NCBI RefSeq assembly: GCF_013249015.1
Contig: NZ_JABRPL010000001.1
Span: 1,102,318 to 1,166,317 of the forward strand
Origin: Rathayibacter agropyri
Lineage (GTDB): Bacteria > Actinomycetota > Actinomycetes > Actinomycetales > Microbacteriaceae
Direction: 5' to 3'
Length of the DNA stretch: 64,000 bases
The first letter of the stretch is position 1. Every line of letters starts with the position of its first letter. Positions 11,821 to 18,405 of the stretch are shown here, piece after piece. The position numbers were made by a program, and so were the translations under genes. Under the pieces are notes generated by a model that saw only the letters and a list, made by a program, of their open reading frames with translations, had not been told where the DNA came from and did no database searches.

Positions 11821-12837
11821 ATGACGATCACGCTCGGATACAAGGCATCGGCGGAGCAGTTCGGTGCGCGCGAACTTGTCGAACTCGCGGTGAGCGCCGA
11901 GCGGCACGGCTTTGAGAGCGCGGTCGTCTCCGACCACTTCCAGCCCTGGCGGCACACCGGCGGGCACGCTCCGTTCTCGCTGGCTTGGCTGGCGGCGGCA
12001 GGAGAGCGGACGTCGACCATCCGTCTCGGCACCTCTGTGATGACCCCGCACTACCGCTACAATCCGGCCGTTATCGCGCAGGCCTTCGGCACCCTCGGGG
12101 TGCTCTACCCCGAGCGGATCCTGCTCGGCGTCGGCACCGGCGAGGCGCTCAACGAGGTCGCGACCGGGTATCAGGGCGCCGGGGAGCAGACCTGGCCCGA
12201 GTTCAAGGAGCGCTTCGCTCGTCTTCGCGAGGCCGTCCGCCTCATGCGCGCCCTCTGGGCCGGCGACCGGGTTACCTTTGACGGCGAGTACTACTCCACC
12301 CACGAGGCGTCCATCTACGACAAGCCGGAGAGCGGCGTCCCTGTCTACATCGCCGCGGGCGGCCCCGTAGTCGCGAAGTACGCGGGTCGCGCGGGCGACG
12401 GCTTCATCTGCACCTCGGGCAAGGGGATGGACCTCTACACCGAGAAGCTCCTGCCCGCGGTAGAAGAGGGCGCTGCGGCGGCGGGCCGCGACTCCTCGAC
12501 GCTTGACCGGATGATCGAGATCAAGCTCTCCTACGATCCCGACCCGGCGCTCGCCCTCGAGAACACCCGCTTTTGGGCTCCGCTCTCGCTCACTCCCGAG
12601 CAGAAGCACTCGCTGACCGACCCCGTCGACATGGAGCGCGCGGCCGACGAGCTGCCGATCGAGCAGGTGGCCAAGCGCTGGATCGTGGGGTCCGATCCCG
12701 ACGAGACGGTCGCGCAGATCAGACCCTATGTCGACGCGGGCTTCACTCACCTCGTCTTCCACGCCCCCGGCGACGACCAGCAGCGCTTCTTCGACAGCTT
12801 CGAGCGCGATCTCGCACCGCGCCTACGCGCGCTCTGA
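11821..12837 (+). CDS. fgd: F420-dependent glucose-6-phosphate dehydrogenase
   Basis: 338 aa, the usual length. FGD oxidises glucose-6-phosphate to 6-phosphogluconolactone while reducing coenzyme F420 to F420H2. Residues D38-H39-F40 and W43 in [13 protein letters not shown], and E108 in [12 protein letters not shown], match the catalytic histidine, tryptophan and glutamate of mycobacterial FGD1 with an offset of one. The luciferase-like TIM barrel is complete through [17 protein letters not shown]. It is the first gene of an operon; the FO synthase-like gene starts 43 bp after its stop. The presence of fgd implies the cell has, or once had, F420. Alternative: another F420-dependent sugar-phosphate or alcohol dehydrogenase of the same subfamily. 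Confidence 0.9.
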
Positions 12838-12880: not shown

Positions 12881-15268
12881 ATGACCACGGCCACCCTCCT
12901 CGCCCAACTCGACCGCGGCGAGCCGATCACTCGTGCGAGCGCCGAGGCTCTGCTTGGCTCCCGGGGAGCCGACCTCGATCTGCTCCTCGAAGCCGCCGGA
13001 CGGCTCCGCGACGAGGGGTTGGTCCACCGCGGCCGGCCCGGAGTCGTCACGTACTCCCGCAAAGTGTTCGTCCCACTCACGAAGCTGTGCCGCGACCGCT
13101 GCCACTACTGCGTCTTCGTCGAGACGCCCGGCGGGCTCGCGGCCAGACGCGAATCGACCTTCATGGAGCCGGAGGAGATCCTCGAGGTTGCTCGAGCAGG
13201 TGCCGCGCTGGGCTGCAAGGAGGCGCTCTTCACTCTCGGCGACCGCCCGGAGGACCGCTGGCCGATCGCTCGCGCCTGGCTCGCCGAGCACGGTTATGCC
13301 TCGACTCTGGAGTACGTCGGGGCTATGGCGGTCCTGGTGATGAGCGAGACGGGCATGGTGACCCATCTGAACCCCGGCGTGATGTCCTGGGCCGAATTGC
13401 AGCGGCTGCGTCCCGTCGCCCCCTCGATGGGAATGATGCTGGAGACCACGGCCGAGCGGCTCTGGTCAGAGAAGGGCGGGGTGCACTACGGCTCCCCCGA
13501 CAAAGATCCGGCGCTGCGGCTGCGCGTGCTCGAGGACGCGGGCCGCAGCCGCATCCCCTTCACGACCGGAGTGCTGCTGGGCATCGGCGAGAACGCCGCC
13601 GAGCGGGCCGACGCGCTCTTCGCGATCCGCGAGTCCCACGAGCGTTGGGGTCACGTGCAGGAGTGCATCGTGCAGAATTTCCGGGCCAAGCCTCGGACCG
13701 CGATGCAGAACGAGGTCGATCTCGAGTTGCAGGAGTATGTGGCGAACGTCGCCGTCGCGCGGTTGGTCCTCGGCGCGGATGCGACGATTCAGGCGCCGCC
13801 GAACCTCACCGATGAGCAAGAGCTCGGCCTGCTCCTGCGCGCCGGGATCGACGACTGGGGCGGGGTCAGCCCGTTGACCGCCGACCACGTGAATCCAGAG
13901 CGCCCCTGGCCCAACATTGACGACCTCGCCCGACTCACGGCCACCGCGGGGTTTCGCCTCTGCGAGCGCCTCACCGCGCATCCGCACTACCTCCGGGATG
14001 CAGCCACCTGGATCGACCCCCGGGTTGAGCCATACGTCCTCGCCCTCGCTGACCGCTCGACGTGGCTGGCCGACGAGGCGGCACCGGTCCTCCCTCGGCC
14101 GTACCGCGAGACGCTTGACGCCCTGCCCCGGCCCTCCGCTCCCACGCTGGGCACGGTACTCGCCCGTGCCGGCGCCGATCCGGCCGGGCTCGCGGACGCC
14201 GATTACCTCGCTCTGCTCGCAGCCGACGGAGATGACCTCGACGCCCTCGCCGCGCTCGCCGACGACGTCCGCCGCGAGGCTGTCGGTGACGTGGTCTCTG
14301 TCGTCGTCAACCGCAACATCGACACCTCCCTCTGGGGCGCAGGTGGGCTGACCGTCGAGCGCCTGGAAGAGCTCGCCGACGAGGCGGTCGCCCTCGGCGC
14401 CACCGAGCTCTGCCTGCAGGGCGCAATCGGGCCAGAGCACCCGGGCGACGACCTCCTCCTGATCGTCCGCACGCTCCGGCAGCGGCAGCCGTCTGTGCAC
14501 CTGCACGCCTACCGCCCCGGCGAGATTCTCGAGATCGCCCGCCGAACAGGTCGGACCTTGCCCGCGATGTTGACCGCGCTTCGCGACGCGGGAGTCGACT
14601 CCGTGCCGGGCACGGCCGCGCGAATCCTGGATGACGACGTGCGCGCGATACTCAGCGAGGGCGCCGATCCGAGCGCAGCGGAATGGCGGGAGACCATTAC
14701 TGCCGCCCATCGCAGCGGCCTGCGTTCGACCTCGACCATGGTCTACGGCCACGTCGAGACACCCGAGCAGCAGCTCGCCCACCTACGCACGCTGGCGGCA
14801 ATTCAGGACGAGACGAGCGGCTTCACCGAGTTCATCGCGATGCCGTTCATCCCGGCCGAGGCTCCGCCGGCCGTCGTCCAGGCGTCTCGCGCAGGCCCAA
14901 GCCTTCGCGAGACCCGCGCCGTGCACGCTGTCGCCCGGCTGGTGCTGCACGGCCGGATCAACCACGTGCAGACGGCCTGGACCAAGCTCGGGCTGCAGAC
15001 CGCGCAGGTGCTCTTGCGCGGCGGCGCCGACGACCTCGGCGGTCTGCTACTCGACGGCGTGCTGCGGCCGGAGGCGGGAGCGGAGGCGTTCCGTGCCCTC
15101 GACATACCCACAGTCGCCAGGATCACCGCCGAGATCGGCCGCGGCTGGCGCCAGCGAACCACAACCTACGGCGACGTCCCTTCCGACCGCGCGCTGCAGG
15201 CCGAACTGCCGAGAGCAGCGGAGCCGCGGCGGCTGCGGCTCCCCGTGCGCGAGTCCCGTCTGTCATGA
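12881..15268 (+). CDS. FbiC/CofGH-like FO synthase with a degenerate CofH half
   Basis: 795 aa, near the length of two-domain FbiC. The CofG half (residues 1-~370) keeps its radical-SAM cluster motif C70-x3-C74-x2-C77 (LCRDRCHYCVF) and the blocks CKEALFTLGDRPEDRWP and QAPPNLTDEQ. The CofH half is recognisable by VVNRNI (475-480), LGATELCLQG, IPGT-like VPGTAARILDDDVR, LRSTSTMVYGHVETP and GFTEFIAMPFIP. The stretch that should carry CxxxCxxC after NRNI reads DTSLWGAGGLTVERLEELAD instead, shorter by about 17 residues and with no cysteine. FO synthesis needs both halves, so this protein should not make FO alone. No frameshift is seen. ATG 12881 was chosen because the upstream in-frame part shadows fgd. 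It overlaps the hydrolase gene by ATGA. Confidence 0.9.
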   Translation: MTTATLLAQLDRGEPITRASAEALLGSRGADLDLLLEAAGRLRDEGLVHRGRPGVVTYSRKVFVPLTKLCRDRCHYCVFVETPGGLAARRESTFMEPEEILEVARAGAALGCKEALFTLGDRPEDRWPIARAWLAEHGYASTLEYVGAMAVLVMSETGMVTHLNPGVMSWAELQRLRPVAPSMGMMLETTAERLWSEKGGVHYGSPDKDPALRLRVLEDAGRSRIPFTTGVLLGIGENAAERADALFAIRESHERWGHVQECIVQNFRAKPRTAMQNEVDLELQEYVANVAVARLVLGADATIQAPPNLTDEQELGLLLRAGIDDWGGVSPLTADHVNPERPWPNIDDLARLTATAGFRLCERLTAHPHYLRDAATWIDPRVEPYVLALADRSTWLADEAAPVLPRPYRETLDALPRPSAPTLGTVLARAGADPAGLADADYLALLAADGDDLDALAALADDVRREAVGDVVSVVVNRNIDTSLWGAGGLTVERLEELADEAVALGATELCLQGAIGPEHPGDDLLLIVRTLRQRQPSVHLHAYRPGEILEIARRTGRTLPAMLTALRDAGVDSVPGTAARILDDDVRAILSEGADPSAAEWRETITAAHRSGLRSTSTMVYGHVETPEQQLAHLRTLAAIQDETSGFTEFIAMPFIPAEAPPAVVQASRAGPSLRETRAVHAVARLVLHGRINHVQTAWTKLGLQTAQVLLRGGADDLGGLLLDGVLRPEAGAEAFRALDIPTVARITAEIGRGWRQRTTTYGDVPSDRALQAELPRAAEPRRLRLPVRESRLS

Positions 15269-16071
15269 GCGGCCCCTCGGACTATCTCGCGCGGCAGGCC
15301 GCTCTGGTCGGCGAGGAAACGGTACTCAGTGGCGGCGCGCGGGTGCGGATGCTCACCGCCGGCTCCGTGCAGCCGTCCGTCGTCCTTCTCGTCACCGGAG
15401 CCGGGCGGGGGGCTCGCGCCGACACATCGCTCCTGCTGCCTCTGCTCGCCCGACGCCACCGGGTCGCCGCACTCGAACTCGCCGACCTCGACGACCCCTG
15501 GGCAGACGGTCCGTATGCGGTCAGCGCTGCCCTCGATGCGCTCGGTGGCGCTGAGGCCGTCGTCGTCGGGCACGCGCTTGGCGCCTCCGTCGCCCTCGCC
15601 GCGGCCGACACCGAGCCCCGCGTGCGCGCCCTCGCCCTCGTGGCGGGCTGGCTGCATCCGACCGCGCGCCTGCTCGGCACGGCCCGGCTCTGGGCGCTGC
15701 TCGCCGACTCTCGGGAGGCACGCGACGAGGCGGCGCGACTGCTCGCTCTGCGCTCGCCCGGGTCCGGATCGCCCTGGGACCAGAACGCCGAACGGATGCT
15801 CACCGCCTCCGCTCGAGCCGATGCCAGCGCAGCTGCCGCTCGCCTGCGCATCCCCGCCCTCGTCGTCGGCTGCACCTCGGATGCGGTCGTCGGCAGTGAA
15901 GGCTCCGAAGCGTTGCTCGGCGCGATCGAGGACGCCCGCTACGCCGTGGTGGACTCGGGCCACGCCGTCCTGGCCGAGCGCCCGGCCGAGCTGCTCGCGG
16001 TGCTCGAGCACTTCCTCGCCGATCCTCGCCGCGATCCGGCGGGCAGCGTCTTACCGCGGATGACGATCTAA
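15265..16071 (+). CDS. Alpha/beta-hydrolase-fold protein lacking the nucleophile
   Basis: 268 aa. The fold shows as the oxyanion region VVLLVTGAGRGARADTSLLL, the nucleophile elbow VVGHALGASVALAAA (101-115), an acid D206 in VGCTSDAVVG, and H233 in VDSGHAVLAERP. At the elbow the consensus G-x-S-x-G is G-H-A104-L-G, so the serine is alanine. The acid and the histidine remain. It is therefore not expected to be a standard esterase; it could bind a ligand, act as a cofactor-free oxygenase-type or decarboxylating relative, or be decaying. ATG 15265 overlaps the FO-synthase-like stop, and its own TAA shares a base with the monooxygenase ATG (TAATG). Confidence 0.82.
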   Translation: MSGPSDYLARQAALVGEETVLSGGARVRMLTAGSVQPSVVLLVTGAGRGARADTSLLLPLLARRHRVAALELADLDDPWADGPYAVSAALDALGGAEAVVVGHALGASVALAAADTEPRVRALALVAGWLHPTARLLGTARLWALLADSREARDEAARLLALRSPGSGSPWDQNAERMLTASARADASAAAARLRIPALVVGCTSDAVVGSEGSEALLGAIEDARYAVVDSGHAVLAERPAELLAVLEHFLADPRRDPAGSVLPRMTI

Positions 16072-17804
16072 TGAGCGACGAGGGCGCCGTCGACGTTGAT
16101 GTCGTCGTGGTCGGCGCCGGATTCGCCGGACTCGGTGCCGCGACGCGCCTCGAGCGCCGCGGTCGCACCTCCTTCGTCGTCCTGGAACGCGCCGAGCGCG
16201 TCGGCGGCACCTGGCGCGACAACGTCTACCCCAACGTTTCCTGCGATATCCCCTCGCACCTCTACTCCTACTCGTTCGCCCCCGAAGCCGACTGGTCCGC
16301 GTTCTACGCGCCCGGCGCCGAGATTCAGGCCTACCTGGAGCGCGTGGTCGAGCGCGAGCAGCTCAGCCCGCGCCTACGCCTGGGCACCGAGGTCCTCGAG
16401 GCGGTCTTCGACGAGGAGGCATGCCGCTGGCTCGTCCGCACTACGCGCGGCAACTACTCCGCGGCCGTGCTCCTGCTCTGCGCCGGGCGCCTCTCGGAGC
16501 CGAGGCTCCCGGCCGTCCCCGGCCTCGATGCCTTCCCCGGCCCGGCCTTCCACTCGGCCCGCTGGCGCGACGACATCGACCTCGAGGGAGCCCGCGTCGG
16601 AATCGTCGGATCCGGCGCCTCCGCCGTGCAGATCGTGCCGCACCTAGCCGAACGGGCTGCCCAGGTCGTCCTCTTCCAACGCTCTGCGCCCTACGTCATC
16701 CCCCGACGCAACCGCGCGTACCAGCCGGAGGAGCGCCGGGCTCTCGCCCGCGCGCCGGGCGCCCTGACGCGACTTCGCGAAGAGCTGTTCTGGCAGGCCG
16801 AGCTCGGCTTTGCAGGCCGCGTCGGCGTACCGGAGGCGATCGATCGGCTGCGAGCGGAGGCGCTCGACCACCTCGCTGCGCACGTTTCCGATCCCGAGCT
16901 ACGCGCCGTCCTCACCCCCGATTACGAGATCGGCTGCAAGCGGGTCCTGCTCTCGGACGATTACTACCCCGCACTCGCACAGGCACACGTTCGCGTCGTC
17001 CCCGGGCCGCTGCGCACGATCGATGGGTCAGCCGCTGTCGGCGATGACGACGTGCCGCACGAGCTGGACGTGCTCGTCTTCGCCACCGGCTTTCACTCGA
17101 CACGCCCTCCGTTTGCTCGGCGCATCCGCGGCCGCGGCTCTGTGCTGCTCGCCGACCGCTGGGCCGACGGGATGGCAGCGTACGCCTCGACGACCGTGCA
17201 CGGCTTCCCCAACCTCTTCGTTGTCAACGGCCCCAACGCCAGCCTCGGCCACAACTCCGCCGTGCACATGATCGAGTCGCAGATCGAGTACGTCCTCGCT
17301 GCCCTTGATCACCTCGAGACCACGGGCTCGGACCTCCTTGAGGTCTCTGCCCATGCCGAGGCCGCCTCCGTCGCCCGCATCGACGCACTGAGCACCGACA
17401 CCGTCTGGACCAACGGCGGCTGCGAGAGCTGGTACCTCGACCCGAACCGGCGGCTCACACTGCTCTGGCCCGACTTCGCCTTTGCCTTTCGCGAAGAGCT
17501 GAGTCACTTCGATCCGGCGGCCTATTCATCGTCACCGCGCTCTCGCTATCGTGACCGCATGACCGATCGCGTGCTCGCTCCCGAACCGCCCGCCGACGGC
17601 GCGAAACCGAAGGGGCCCGCCTCCTACTTCCCGAGCATCGAGAAGACGTACGGCCGTCCGGTGCAGGAGTGGCTCGACCTCGCCGACGAGCGCCTGCGCC
17701 ATGATGCGCACCTGCAGGTCGTGACCTGGCTCAAGGTCGAGCACGGCCTCGGTCACGGTCACGCGAACGCGATCGTCGCCTACGTCCGCTCCGCCCGCAC
17801 CTGA
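16071..17804 (+). CDS. Flavin monooxygenase (Baeyer-Villiger type) fused to DUF4287
   Basis: 577 aa. FAD-binding GAGFAGLG at 15-22 and the ERVGGTWRDNVYPNVSCDIP block are typical of cyclohexanone monooxygenase-like enzymes. The fingerprint FPGPAFHSARWR near 155-166 follows the BVMO pattern FxGxxxHxxxW. The NADPH motif GIVGSGASAVQ sits near 185 and DVLVFATGFHSTRP near 340. Residues ~514-577 (PASYFPSIEKTYGRPVQEWL) form a DUF4287 domain, usually a separate small protein. An internal ATG at 17560 sits just before it, after a linker YSSSPRSRYRDRM that looks like former intergenic DNA. The enzyme should add oxygen to a ketone or other carbonyl. Last coupled gene of the fgd operon. Confidence 0.88.
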   Translation: MSDEGAVDVDVVVVGAGFAGLGAATRLERRGRTSFVVLERAERVGGTWRDNVYPNVSCDIPSHLYSYSFAPEADWSAFYAPGAEIQAYLERVVEREQLSPRLRLGTEVLEAVFDEEACRWLVRTTRGNYSAAVLLLCAGRLSEPRLPAVPGLDAFPGPAFHSARWRDDIDLEGARVGIVGSGASAVQIVPHLAERAAQVVLFQRSAPYVIPRRNRAYQPEERRALARAPGALTRLREELFWQAELGFAGRVGVPEAIDRLRAEALDHLAAHVSDPELRAVLTPDYEIGCKRVLLSDDYYPALAQAHVRVVPGPLRTIDGSAAVGDDDVPHELDVLVFATGFHSTRPPFARRIRGRGSVLLADRWADGMAAYASTTVHGFPNLFVVNGPNASLGHNSAVHMIESQIEYVLAALDHLETTGSDLLEVSAHAEAASVARIDALSTDTVWTNGGCESWYLDPNRRLTLLWPDFAFAFREELSHFDPAAYSSSPRSRYRDRMTDRVLAPEPPADGAKPKGPASYFPSIEKTYGRPVQEWLDLADERLRHDAHLQVVTWLKVEHGLGHGHANAIVAYVRSART

Positions 17805-17898: not shown

Positions 17899-18405
17899 AT
17901 GGGGGGAATGCGAGAAGACGACGATGTCGATCTGGTGATTGACGCTTGGGCCAGTGCGTTGCCCGATCTGGACCTCGCCCCCCTCGATGTCCTGTCGCGC
18001 CTACGTCGGCTGAGCCCGCGTGTGCAAGAGGTGCGCCGACAGTCCTTCGCAGCCAGCGACCTCACCCCGTGGGAGTTTGAGTTGCTCTCCCTCCTGCGCC
18101 AGCTCGGCCCGAACGGGATGACGCCGTCCGGCTTGGCGGCTCGCCTCGTCCTCTCGAGCGGCAACCTCGCCAGCCGCGTCGACCGTCTTGCCGCCCGCGG
18201 CCTCGTCGTCCGCGAACACAACGCGGCGGATTCGCGGAGCAAGATCATCTCGCTCACTCCGCGCGGCACTAAGCGGGTCGACGAGGCCATGCGGCATCTC
18301 GTTGCGGCCGAGGGCGACGTGCTCGCTGCTCTCGACTCCACTCAGGTGTCCGTGCTCATCGAGTGCCTCCGCAGAATCAGCGACACGCTCGACCATTTGC
18401 AGTAG
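17899..18405 (+). CDS. MarR-family transcriptional regulator
   Basis: 168 aa. The winged helix is complete: FELLSLLRQLGPNGMTPSGL (helices 2-3), the recognition part LAARLVLSSGNLASRVDRLA, and the wing RGLVVREHNAADSRSKIISL. N- and C-terminal helices for dimerisation are present. Two ATGs are possible (17899 and 17908, the latter giving MREDDD). It follows the monooxygenase gene by 94 bp on the same strand. MarR proteins often sense phenolic or other small aromatic ligands and control neighbouring detoxification genes, so regulation of the fgd-monooxygenase operon is a fair guess. No operator palindrome was identified. Confidence 0.9.
   Translation: MGGMREDDDVDLVIDAWASALPDLDLAPLDVLSRLRRLSPRVQEVRRQSFAASDLTPWEFELLSLLRQLGPNGMTPSGLAARLVLSSGNLASRVDRLAARGLVVREHNAADSRSKIISLTPRGTKRVDEAMRHLVAAEGDVLAALDSTQVSVLIECLRRISDTLDHLQ

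Follow-up and report, generated by a model that had tools for sequence, protein, structure and literature searches.

An FbiC-like protein with a cluster-less CofH half and a linked flavin monooxygenase: a probable alternative to the CofH step of FO synthesis

Introduction

How can a bacterium make the deazaflavin FO when the CofH half of its FbiC-like protein has lost the cysteines of its iron-sulphur cluster? This question is raised by a locus in a window of 64,000 nucleotides (the whole stretch of Rathayibacter agropyri DNA that was analysed). According to a 2021 review on F420, FO is formed in all studied producers via a universal mechanism involving two radical-SAM domains (PMC8498797). 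Within the portions of open-licence PubMed Central papers that our search covered, no literature on a cluster-less CofH or on a flavin monooxygenase in F420 synthesis was found. The original prediction for this locus offered three options: a separate CofH, a new job for the protein or a decaying pathway.

Results

The CofH half of the window protein lacks its cluster motif

The fbiC-like gene lies downstream of fgd (Table 1). The ATG at 12881 was chosen as its start, the frame being open from 12728, and the frame stays open through to its natural end. The CofG half carries CRDRCHYC at residues 70-77. In the CofH half, VVNRNI (residues 475-480) is present and NRNI is followed by DTSLWGAGGLTVERLEELAD..., with 17 residues fewer than in the intact FbiC of L010. 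In this alignment two of the three cysteines fall inside the gap and the first one is substituted, and QGA/IGP stands where the intact type has QGG/IHP. No second CxxxCxxC was found in the CofH half of the window protein, either in the sequence or in the alignment. The original prediction had described the intact C70/C74/C77, the missing CxxxCxxC with about 17 residues, the changed QGG/IHP and the open frame in the same way, and all of this was borne out.

When compared with the NCBIfam models, the window protein scored above the cut-off for CofG (TIGR03550; 473.5 bits, cut-off 213.35), but below it for CofH (TIGR03551; 335 bits, cut-off 374.1) and for the full CofGH protein (NF006687; 1003.7 bits, cut-off 1018). 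Since the last score reaches 98.6% of the cut-off, the change can go unnoticed under an 'FbiC' annotation. We agree with the earlier view that, by the known mechanism, FO should not be made by this protein alone, as its CofH half is devoid of radical-SAM ligands.

Table 1. Features of the fbiC-like locus, in window coordinates
Feature	Position	Strand	Basis
fgd, F420-dependent glucose-6-phosphate dehydrogenase	11821..12837	+	TIGR03554
fbiC-like gene, CofH half cluster-less, 795 aa	12881..15268	+	ORF list, NCBIfam models, alignment
CofG half, residues 57-386, radical-SAM domain including motif	13049..14038	+	TIGR03550, invariant positions
CofG cluster motif CRDRCHYC (C70, C74, C77)	13088..13111	+	sequence
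CofH' half, residues 439-766, predicted radical-SAM barrel lacking the cluster motif	14195..15178	+	
Lost CxxxCxxC loop site, DTSLWGAGG, residues 481-489	14321..14347	+	alignment
Arg545, new invariant CofH' residue (Ser in intact CofH)	14513..14515	+	alignment
Arg581, replaces Glu common to CofH, MqnC and MqnE	14621..14623	+	alignment
Alpha/beta hydrolase between fbiC and monooxygenase, overlapping both	15265..16071	+	Abhydrolase_6
FMO, type I Baeyer-Villiger-like flavin monooxygenase	16071..17804	+	homology to solved enzymes
FMO fingerprint FxGxxxHxxxW, residues 155-165	16533..16565	+	alignment
DUF4287 tail, fused to window FMO	17613..17789	+	PF14117
MarR-family regulator, downstream; candidate member of the unit	17899..18405	+	MarR_2

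Cluster-less CofH halves form a conserved family

The original prediction had pointed to relatives as the place to look for the same loss, and a search of genome contigs indeed found it in 11 of the 80 kept relatives, at the same place by alignment. A CofH match was obtained in 94 Microbacteriaceae genomes: 67 have this cluster-less type (CofH'), 27 the normal type and none both; we take the sampled group to be Microbacteriaceae because its centre (G001, which is L001) belongs to the genus Rathayibacter. Because the form is shared by 11/80 relatives and 67/94 genomes, chance and sequencing error are excluded. In other actinobacteria CofH' can be a separate gene, apart from CofG. The frames are open in nearly all cases, the exceptions being L187, L191 and L202, which are not in one frame. 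All CofH' sequences fall into one clade (91/91, support 0.999, stem 0.32), and by this tree CofH' has one origin. Judged from the sequences, cluster-less CofH' is a conserved family and not a product of decay.

Two sequences, L244 (motif CTFKCRFC) and L196, were classed as intact-type after reading, and MqnC/MqnE matches below the cut-off were set outside the CofH' family, their clusters being intact. Three class genomes (G847, G1006 and G1054) gave matches of this below-cut-off range, with 152-193 bits against the CofH' profile, and were likewise left out. A scan of viral contigs found no relatives. Among plasmids, 74 records matched by sequence, each below 60% identity. Truncated, split or broken frames (L187, L191, L192, L196 and L202) were left out of the residue-conservation alignments and of the fused-CofG tree; L007 was left out of one list, and L201, L207, L208, L209, L210 and L229 of one alignment.

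The CofH' half is remodelled and the CofG half is conserved

Position 545 is Arg in 69/69 fused and 17/17 split CofH' sequences and Ser in 87/87 intact ones. At position 581, Glu is found in 87/87 intact and 17/17 Mqn sequences, whereas CofH' has Arg or Lys in about 93% of the 69 fused and in 17/17 split sequences, and Gln in the class-level L322. The 17 Mqn sequences comprise 6 confirmed MqnC or MqnE over cut-off, the rest being labelled by motif and score; L304, L307 and L311 are absent from this comparison (no sequence). In the CofH half, the cluster-less family keeps 46 of 130 invariant positions. Intact CofH has 57 conserved columns that are not conserved in Mqn; 12 of these are kept in CofH' and 29 are lost, and the alignments are equivocal as to whether the uracil site is retained. 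The site of the lost loop varies in length and sequence among relatives, and a structure model predicts a complete radical-SAM barrel for the CofH' half.

In the CofG half of the cluster-less family, 113 of 142 invariant positions are retained, and in the family alignment no position of this half is newly fixed for a residue other than that of the intact majority. In a tree of fused proteins only, the CofG halves of 76 CofH' proteins group together, and L244 joins them as the single intact outlier (support 0.988). When split and class-level CofGs are included, the CofH'-associated CofGs do not group; the best split places 95 of them with 37 others (support 0.13).

The median dN/dS of 23 CofH' pairs was 0.206 (0.078-0.306) for the CofH half and 0.077 for the CofG half, compared to 0.087 and 0.088, respectively, in 30 intact pairs. 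A script chose the pairs within set limits (CofG-half identity 0.88-0.985, dS 0.05-1.2). By these ratios CofH' is under purifying selection; as it evolves faster than the corresponding half of intact FbiC, it is partly relaxed.

A flavin monooxygenase accompanies CofH'

Beyond the original prediction, we observed a monooxygenase partner in the window and the retention of cofC, cofD and cofE in relatives. The monooxygenase (FMO) lies downstream of CofH' on the same strand, sometimes with one gene between, in 100 of 100 readable cases (78/78 fused, 17/17 split and 5/5 class-level). The pairing thus holds where CofH' and CofG are separate genes. L186 was left out as unreadable, its sequence stopping 61 nt past the fused gene. 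No such FMO was found at any of 98 normal-type loci; for 92 of these the downstream sequence extends over 2.5 kb or more.

In an alignment of 100 FMOs, F155, G157 and H161 are conserved in 99 each and W165 in 98, the Rossmann glycines G15, G17, G20, G180 and G182 in 99/100, D59 in 99/100 and R291 in 100/100. The best solved relatives are steroid, phenylacetone and cyclohexanone monooxygenases (4ap3, E 2.6e-71; 1w4x, E 2.9e-67), and the score against the nearest curated model, PtlE, was below the cut-off (215.5 bits, cut-off 1100). Unlinked FMO paralogues with 41-45% identity occur in some intact-type genomes (45/398 family genomes searched). In L173 and L175 the DUF4287 part has a reading frame of its own.

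The alpha/beta hydrolase is present in 6 of the 11 first loss loci and in 0 of 69 intact loci; it is not essential, since many CofH' loci are without it. Neighbourhood clustering of 96 loci revealed no recurrent gene for an aromatic donor: besides FbiC, FMO, fgd and cofD, no family occurs in more than 10 loci. The window Fgd scored 629.8 bits against TIGR03554 (cut-off 420), by which it is a canonical F420 enzyme; L001 and L004 have counterparts of 96% identity at the corresponding place. Near CofH', fgd is found in 29 of 79 loci.

The other F420 genes are kept in CofH' genomes

Statements at the genome level rest on the genomes of relatives. CofG, CofD and CofE are over the cut-off in 11/11 CofH' genomes searched and CofC in 10/11 (104 bits in G004, cut-off 105). 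A separate CofH, one of the options originally offered, was found in none of these 11 genomes (TIGR03551, E<=1e-10), and their own CofH' proteins match this model at 268-332 bits, below its cut-off of 374.1. In Microbacteriaceae, CofD is present in 65/67 CofH' genomes, 27/27 intact-type genomes and 82/304 genomes without a CofH match; because of the last group, CofC, CofD and CofE are no proof of in-house FO. The read flanks of CofH' contain cofD or cofE in 19 of 79 loci, where cofE is perhaps undercounted, as one of the four cofE queries (from L119) was a wrong-strand reading.

Of the 82 genomes with cofD and without CofH, 20 were read. In 18 of them a FecCD-type importer was found at most 8 kb from cofD, and most of the 20 also have cofE in the stretch read. 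No such importer was found within 8 kb of cofD in 16 CofH' or 4 intact genomes. It was also absent from FbiC windows that include cofD, which are shorter around cofD (0/19 CofH' and 0/27 intact, the latter containing the same 4 intact genomes).

Discussion

We consider it probable, from sequence comparison, that CofH' and the FMO replace the CofH step of FO synthesis, and our data suggest that CofH' bacteria make F420 by a route not yet described. Two genes together would substitute for the CofH reaction in FO (and thereby F420) synthesis, and the fbiC-like protein would be the product of one of them. Its CofH half would have become a pseudo-radical-SAM barrel that, having no cluster ligands, would bind no [4Fe-4S] cluster and so would not fragment tyrosine by radical chemistry; the FMO encoded downstream would provide the chemistry instead. 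The absence of newly fixed positions in the CofG half, together with an Fgd that is canonical for F420, leads us to infer that the pair delivers the usual CofG substrate, the hydroxybenzyl-ribityl-uracil intermediate. Of the options originally offered, a new job comes closest: something has changed, but the changed part is the CofH half and not the CofG half. Several observations count against our reading, namely the non-uniform position 581 (R, K, and Q in L322), the FMO paralogues in intact-type genomes, the ungrouped CofG tree (0.13), the PtlE score below the cut-off, the equivocal retention of the uracil site, the faster evolution of the CofH half and the presence of CofD in genomes that have no CofH match.

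Phenylacetone monooxygenase converts phenylacetone to benzyl acetate. In the chemistry that we find likeliest, which is polar, the FMO would insert oxygen into a tyrosine-derived 4-hydroxyphenyl-CH2-C(=O)-R, with 4-hydroxyphenylpyruvate or 4-hydroxyphenylacetaldehyde as candidate substrates. The 4-hydroxybenzyl ester would lose its carboxylate, held by the new Arg545 and by Arg/Lys581, to give a p-quinone methide, which would be captured by C5 of the ribityl-uracil in CofH', and CofG would then close the ring to FO. The general outline, in which an O2-using FMO makes a 4-hydroxybenzyl donor, the cluster-less barrel couples it with the ribityl-uracil in a polar reaction and CofG closes the deazaflavin ring, is a tentative proposal that we hold to be possible. 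The particular sequence of oxygen insertion, ester, p-quinone methide and capture is doubtful. With 2-oxo acids, decarboxylation by flavin monooxygenases is commoner and would give no ester, which counts against this chemistry.

Other explanations were weighed against this replacement of the CofH step. The CofH'-FMO-CofG set might make another product, a modified deazaflavin or an unrelated metabolite, with CofG acting on another substrate. The loss of 29 of the 57 CofH-specific columns means that the ligand of CofH' may differ, and some other ketone or amine could be the substrate of the FMO. We nevertheless find this unlikely, since the 11 genomes contain no further CofG or CofH over the cut-offs and yet keep CofC, CofD and CofE, fgd is nearby in 29/79 loci with a canonical Fgd in the window, and CofG keeps 113/142 invariant positions with none newly fixed. 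The latter point also bears on the idea that the CofG half does both radical steps, with CofH' as a scaffold or substrate carrier and the FMO as an accessory, for example modifying FO or an intermediate. CofG is well conserved and the sole CofG/CofH radical-SAM domain left, and CofH' retains the full barrel in the predicted model. However, a second reaction would probably need newly fixed CofG positions, and the pairing of the FMO with separate-gene CofH' would stay unexplained, so that we rate this idea as quite unlikely. Import of FO, with a remodelled gene pair unrelated to FO supply, has a slim chance. Many genomes of the family have CofD without a CofH match (82/304), which may reflect FO salvage, but the FecCD-type importer that lies near cofD in 18/20 CofH-less genomes is found in 0/16 CofH' windows, and CofH' and the FMO are physically linked to F420 genes in part of the loci.

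That an unrelated enzyme elsewhere performs the CofH reaction, with CofH' and the FMO as chaperone or regulator, is very improbable: a non-homologous enzyme would escape our search, which covered CofH-family homologues, but the FMO is already an enzyme and accompanies CofH' wherever the locus could be read. Decay, frameshift or assembly error has virtually no chance of being correct. The variable cluster loop and the faster CofH half (dN/dS 0.206 vs 0.087) would fit decay, yet it is ruled out by the recurrence in 67 Microbacteriaceae genomes and others, frames open in nearly all of them, dN/dS far below 1, the new invariant Arg545 and the constant FMO pairing. The doubt about plain decay voiced in the original prediction was therefore justified, and its option of a decaying pathway falls.

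A large actinobacterial group has thus kept the other F420 genes and lost the first radical centre, and what remains is paired with an FMO (100/100 readable). Should the pair supply the substrate of CofG, this would be a non-radical, O2-dependent deazaflavin route in which a radical-SAM barrel is reused for other chemistry, and it could aid F420 production in aerobic hosts.

The window protein resembles FbiC/CofGH (NF006687) in its two-domain layout, its CofG half and, in part of the loci, the F420 genes nearby. It differs in that CofH' is without CxxxCxxC, the second glycine of QGG and Glu581, in scoring below the family cut-offs and, wherever the locus could be read, in the FMO that accompanies its type. 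Compared to CofH (TIGR03551) and MqnC/MqnE, CofH' has no cluster ligands, the shared Glu is Arg or Lys in most sequences and Ser545 has become Arg. FbiC-less genomes of the same family with F420 genes, for which FO salvage is proposed, have cofD in common with the CofH' genomes; they carry a FecCD-type importer near cofD (18/20) and no CofH match, whereas CofH' cofD windows are without this importer. Like type I Baeyer-Villiger monooxygenases, the FMO has both Rossmann glycine motifs with FxGxxxHxxxW between them, and its Asp and Arg align with those of the steroid monooxygenase 4ap3. In the window FMO the motif W is followed by R, where P/D is usual in these enzymes. The FMOs differ from type I Baeyer-Villiger monooxygenases in forming a conserved set of their own that is linked to CofH', with oxygen insertion as their putative reaction by analogy.

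The window protein and its gene neighbourhood

In the FbiC-like protein encoded in the window, the CofG half retains its cysteines C70, C74 and C77, and after VVNRNI (residues 475-480) the CofH half reads DTSLWGAGGLTVERLEELAD. When compared with the intact FbiC of locus L010, the CofH half is 17 residues shorter at the cluster site. In the alignment the first cluster cysteine is substituted, the other two fall inside the gap, and the QGG/IHP positions of intact CofH have become QGA/IGP. Sequence and alignment thus bear out the original prediction of a CofH half without the iron-sulfur cluster motif next to a CofG half with its three cysteines. The CofG model scored the protein above its cut-off (473.5 versus 213.35 bits), the CofH model (335 versus 374.1 bits) and the whole CofGH model (1003.7 versus 1018 bits) below theirs. 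Its closest named relatives, among the best 80 of 574, belong to Rathayibacter sp. VKM Ac-2857 and Ac-2856 (83-84% identity).

Features of the FbiC-like locus, with positions counted within the window
Feature	Position	Strand	Remarks
fgd, canonical			upstream of the fbiC-like gene; 629.8 bits versus cut-off 420
FbiC-like protein, 795 aa	12881-15268	+	window reading frame
alpha/beta hydrolase	15265-16071		downstream of the fbiC-like gene, few-base overlap
flavin monooxygenase (FMO)	16071-17804		after the alpha/beta hydrolase, few-base overlap
DUF4287 domain	17613-17789		C-terminal on the FMO
MarR-type regulator			next gene after the FMO

Spread of the cluster-less form

When one genome was scanned for each species, 574 encoded a relative, and among the best 80 of these the second CxxxCxxC was present in 69 and absent in 11 (loci L001-L009, L017 and L022). 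The latter carry the labels Rathayibacter, Humibacter, Arthrobacter, Frigoribacterium, Herbiconiux, Promicromonospora, Subtercola and Cryobacterium, together with two broader-labelled MAGs. L008, a CofH'-FMO locus (CofH' being the cluster-less form) on an Acidobacteriaceae-labelled contig, resembles by eye Promicromonospora L009, and its label is probably a binning error.

We also sampled 398 genomes of the Microbacteriaceae, which we take to be the family of Rathayibacter. At a threshold of E<=1e-30, 94 of them had a CofH match, one each, with 25 scoring 508-527 bits and 69 scoring 147-338 bits. Two of the low scorers (G307 and G205) were re-classed as intact-type fragments after their neighbourhoods had been read, and the final tally was 67 cluster-less versus 27 intact-type. 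Among 396 genomes sampled order-wide, 31 CofH matches lay below the cut-off: 13 fused cluster-less proteins, 6 of which overlap the family sample, 17 separate-gene cluster-less CofH and 1 truncated intact protein. A class-wide sample of 394 genomes added five more with a cluster-less CofH. In the CofH' loci L187, L191 and L202 the CofG and CofH' parts are split over frames as read, which are either real splits or assembly errors. L244 encodes a divergent intact-type FbiC (motif CTFKCRFC) that groups with the cluster-less set in the CofG-half tree.

A flavin monooxygenase accompanies CofH'

The FMO was counted as a partner when encoded downstream on the same strand with its start within 2.5 kb. 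A homologue of the window FMO lies behind CofH' in all 78 readable fused loci, window counted; L186 was left out because its contig stops 61 nt past the gene. No such partner was found in the 98 intact-type loci, 6 of which have less than 2.5 kb of downstream sequence. The FMO also lies behind separate CofH' genes (17/17) and behind CofH' in the class-level cases (5/5), so that the pairing holds in 100 of 100 readable cases. Of the 17 loci with unfused CofH', 15 also carry a separate CofG within the same stretch. Because the pairing holds in the unfused cases, the linked unit is CofH' plus FMO rather than the whole FbiC. Decay of the CofH half, which the original prediction had already found less easy to accept, is rejected, since we find a conserved variant with a constant FMO partner.

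By homology, the FMO groups with steroid, phenylacetone and cyclohexanone monooxygenases, whose sequence motifs are kept in 98-100 of the 100 copies; D59 and R291 are assigned their roles by analogy with phenylacetone monooxygenase. Some intact-type genomes have unlinked paralogues with 41-45% identity. Such unlinked paralogues, with examples at G006:C1:886701-888131 and in G269, G053, G179 and G212, are candidate ancestors of the CofH' partner. DUF4287 lies in frame past one stop codon in L173, a close relative, and in an overlapping separate frame in L175. As both have the domain unfused, its fusion to the FMO is recent or lineage-specific.

The rest of the F420 pathway and FO salvage

Searches of 11 CofH' genomes at E<=1e-10 returned no CofH besides CofH', which speaks against the earlier suggestion that a separate CofH exists. 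CofG, CofD and CofE scored above cut-off in all 11 and CofC in 10, the eleventh being one bit under. Four class-level genomes have CofG, CofH', FMO, cofD and cofE all within 15 kb, and for 29 of the 79 fused loci the retrieved flanks include fgd, several times directly behind the FMO. Judged by gene content, the pathway is otherwise complete in the relatives.

In the Microbacteriaceae, CofD was found in 65 of 67 CofH' genomes, 27 of 27 intact-type genomes and 82 of the 304 that lack a CofH match; because of these 82, cofD alone is no proof of FO synthesis. For 20 of them we read 8 kb on each side of cofD (L327-L346) and found no CofG, CofH or FMO homologue within that distance. In 18 of the 20, the same 8-kb flanks contain an ABC importer made up of a FecCD permease (PF01032), a binding protein (PF01497) and an ATPase. 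This importer was absent from all 16 windows read around cofD in CofH' genomes and from all 4 in intact genomes, and also from the FbiC windows including cofD (0/19 CofH', 0/27 intact), which have shorter flanks around cofD and include the same 4 intact genomes. The comparison covers the neighbourhoods of cofD and FbiC. We read this as import of FO by genomes without FbiC and synthesis by genomes with either FbiC form, the FecCD-type system being a candidate FO importer; no paper on such an importer was found in the portion of the literature searched. Near the orphan cofD, we also observed nitrilase-type CN_hydrolase (13/20), a hydantoinase-like family named by eye (15/20) and luciferase-like genes (14/20), possibly an F420-linked pyrimidine breakdown unit.

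A proposed route to FO

CofG seems unchanged and therefore its substrate is probably unchanged, so that the first FO step must go another way. The FMO is the enzyme that accompanies CofH' in all readable cases, and it may make an electrophilic 4-hydroxybenzyl donor. Acting on 4-hydroxyphenylpyruvate or 4-hydroxyphenylacetaldehyde, it would give a 4-hydroxybenzyl ester, a potential source of p-quinone methide that C5 of the ribityl-uracil could capture inside CofH'. Of 57 CofH-specific columns, CofH' keeps 12 and loses 29, and this loss counts against ribityl-uracil capture in CofH', whose uracil site is putative. The alpha/beta hydrolase, which lies between the fbiC-like gene and the FMO in some loci and is not universal, would fit an ester-handling role. 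Precedent for the FMO step comes from phenylacetone monooxygenase, which converts phenylacetone to benzyl acetate.

In the searched part of the open-licence literature we found no description of a CofH lacking its cluster, nor of an FMO taking part in FO synthesis. An F420 review presents FO synthesis as universal, with two independently acting radical-SAM domains (PMC8498797). The present analysis confirms the original observation and enlarges it: the FO synthase variant is conserved, and a flavin monooxygenase is its constant partner.
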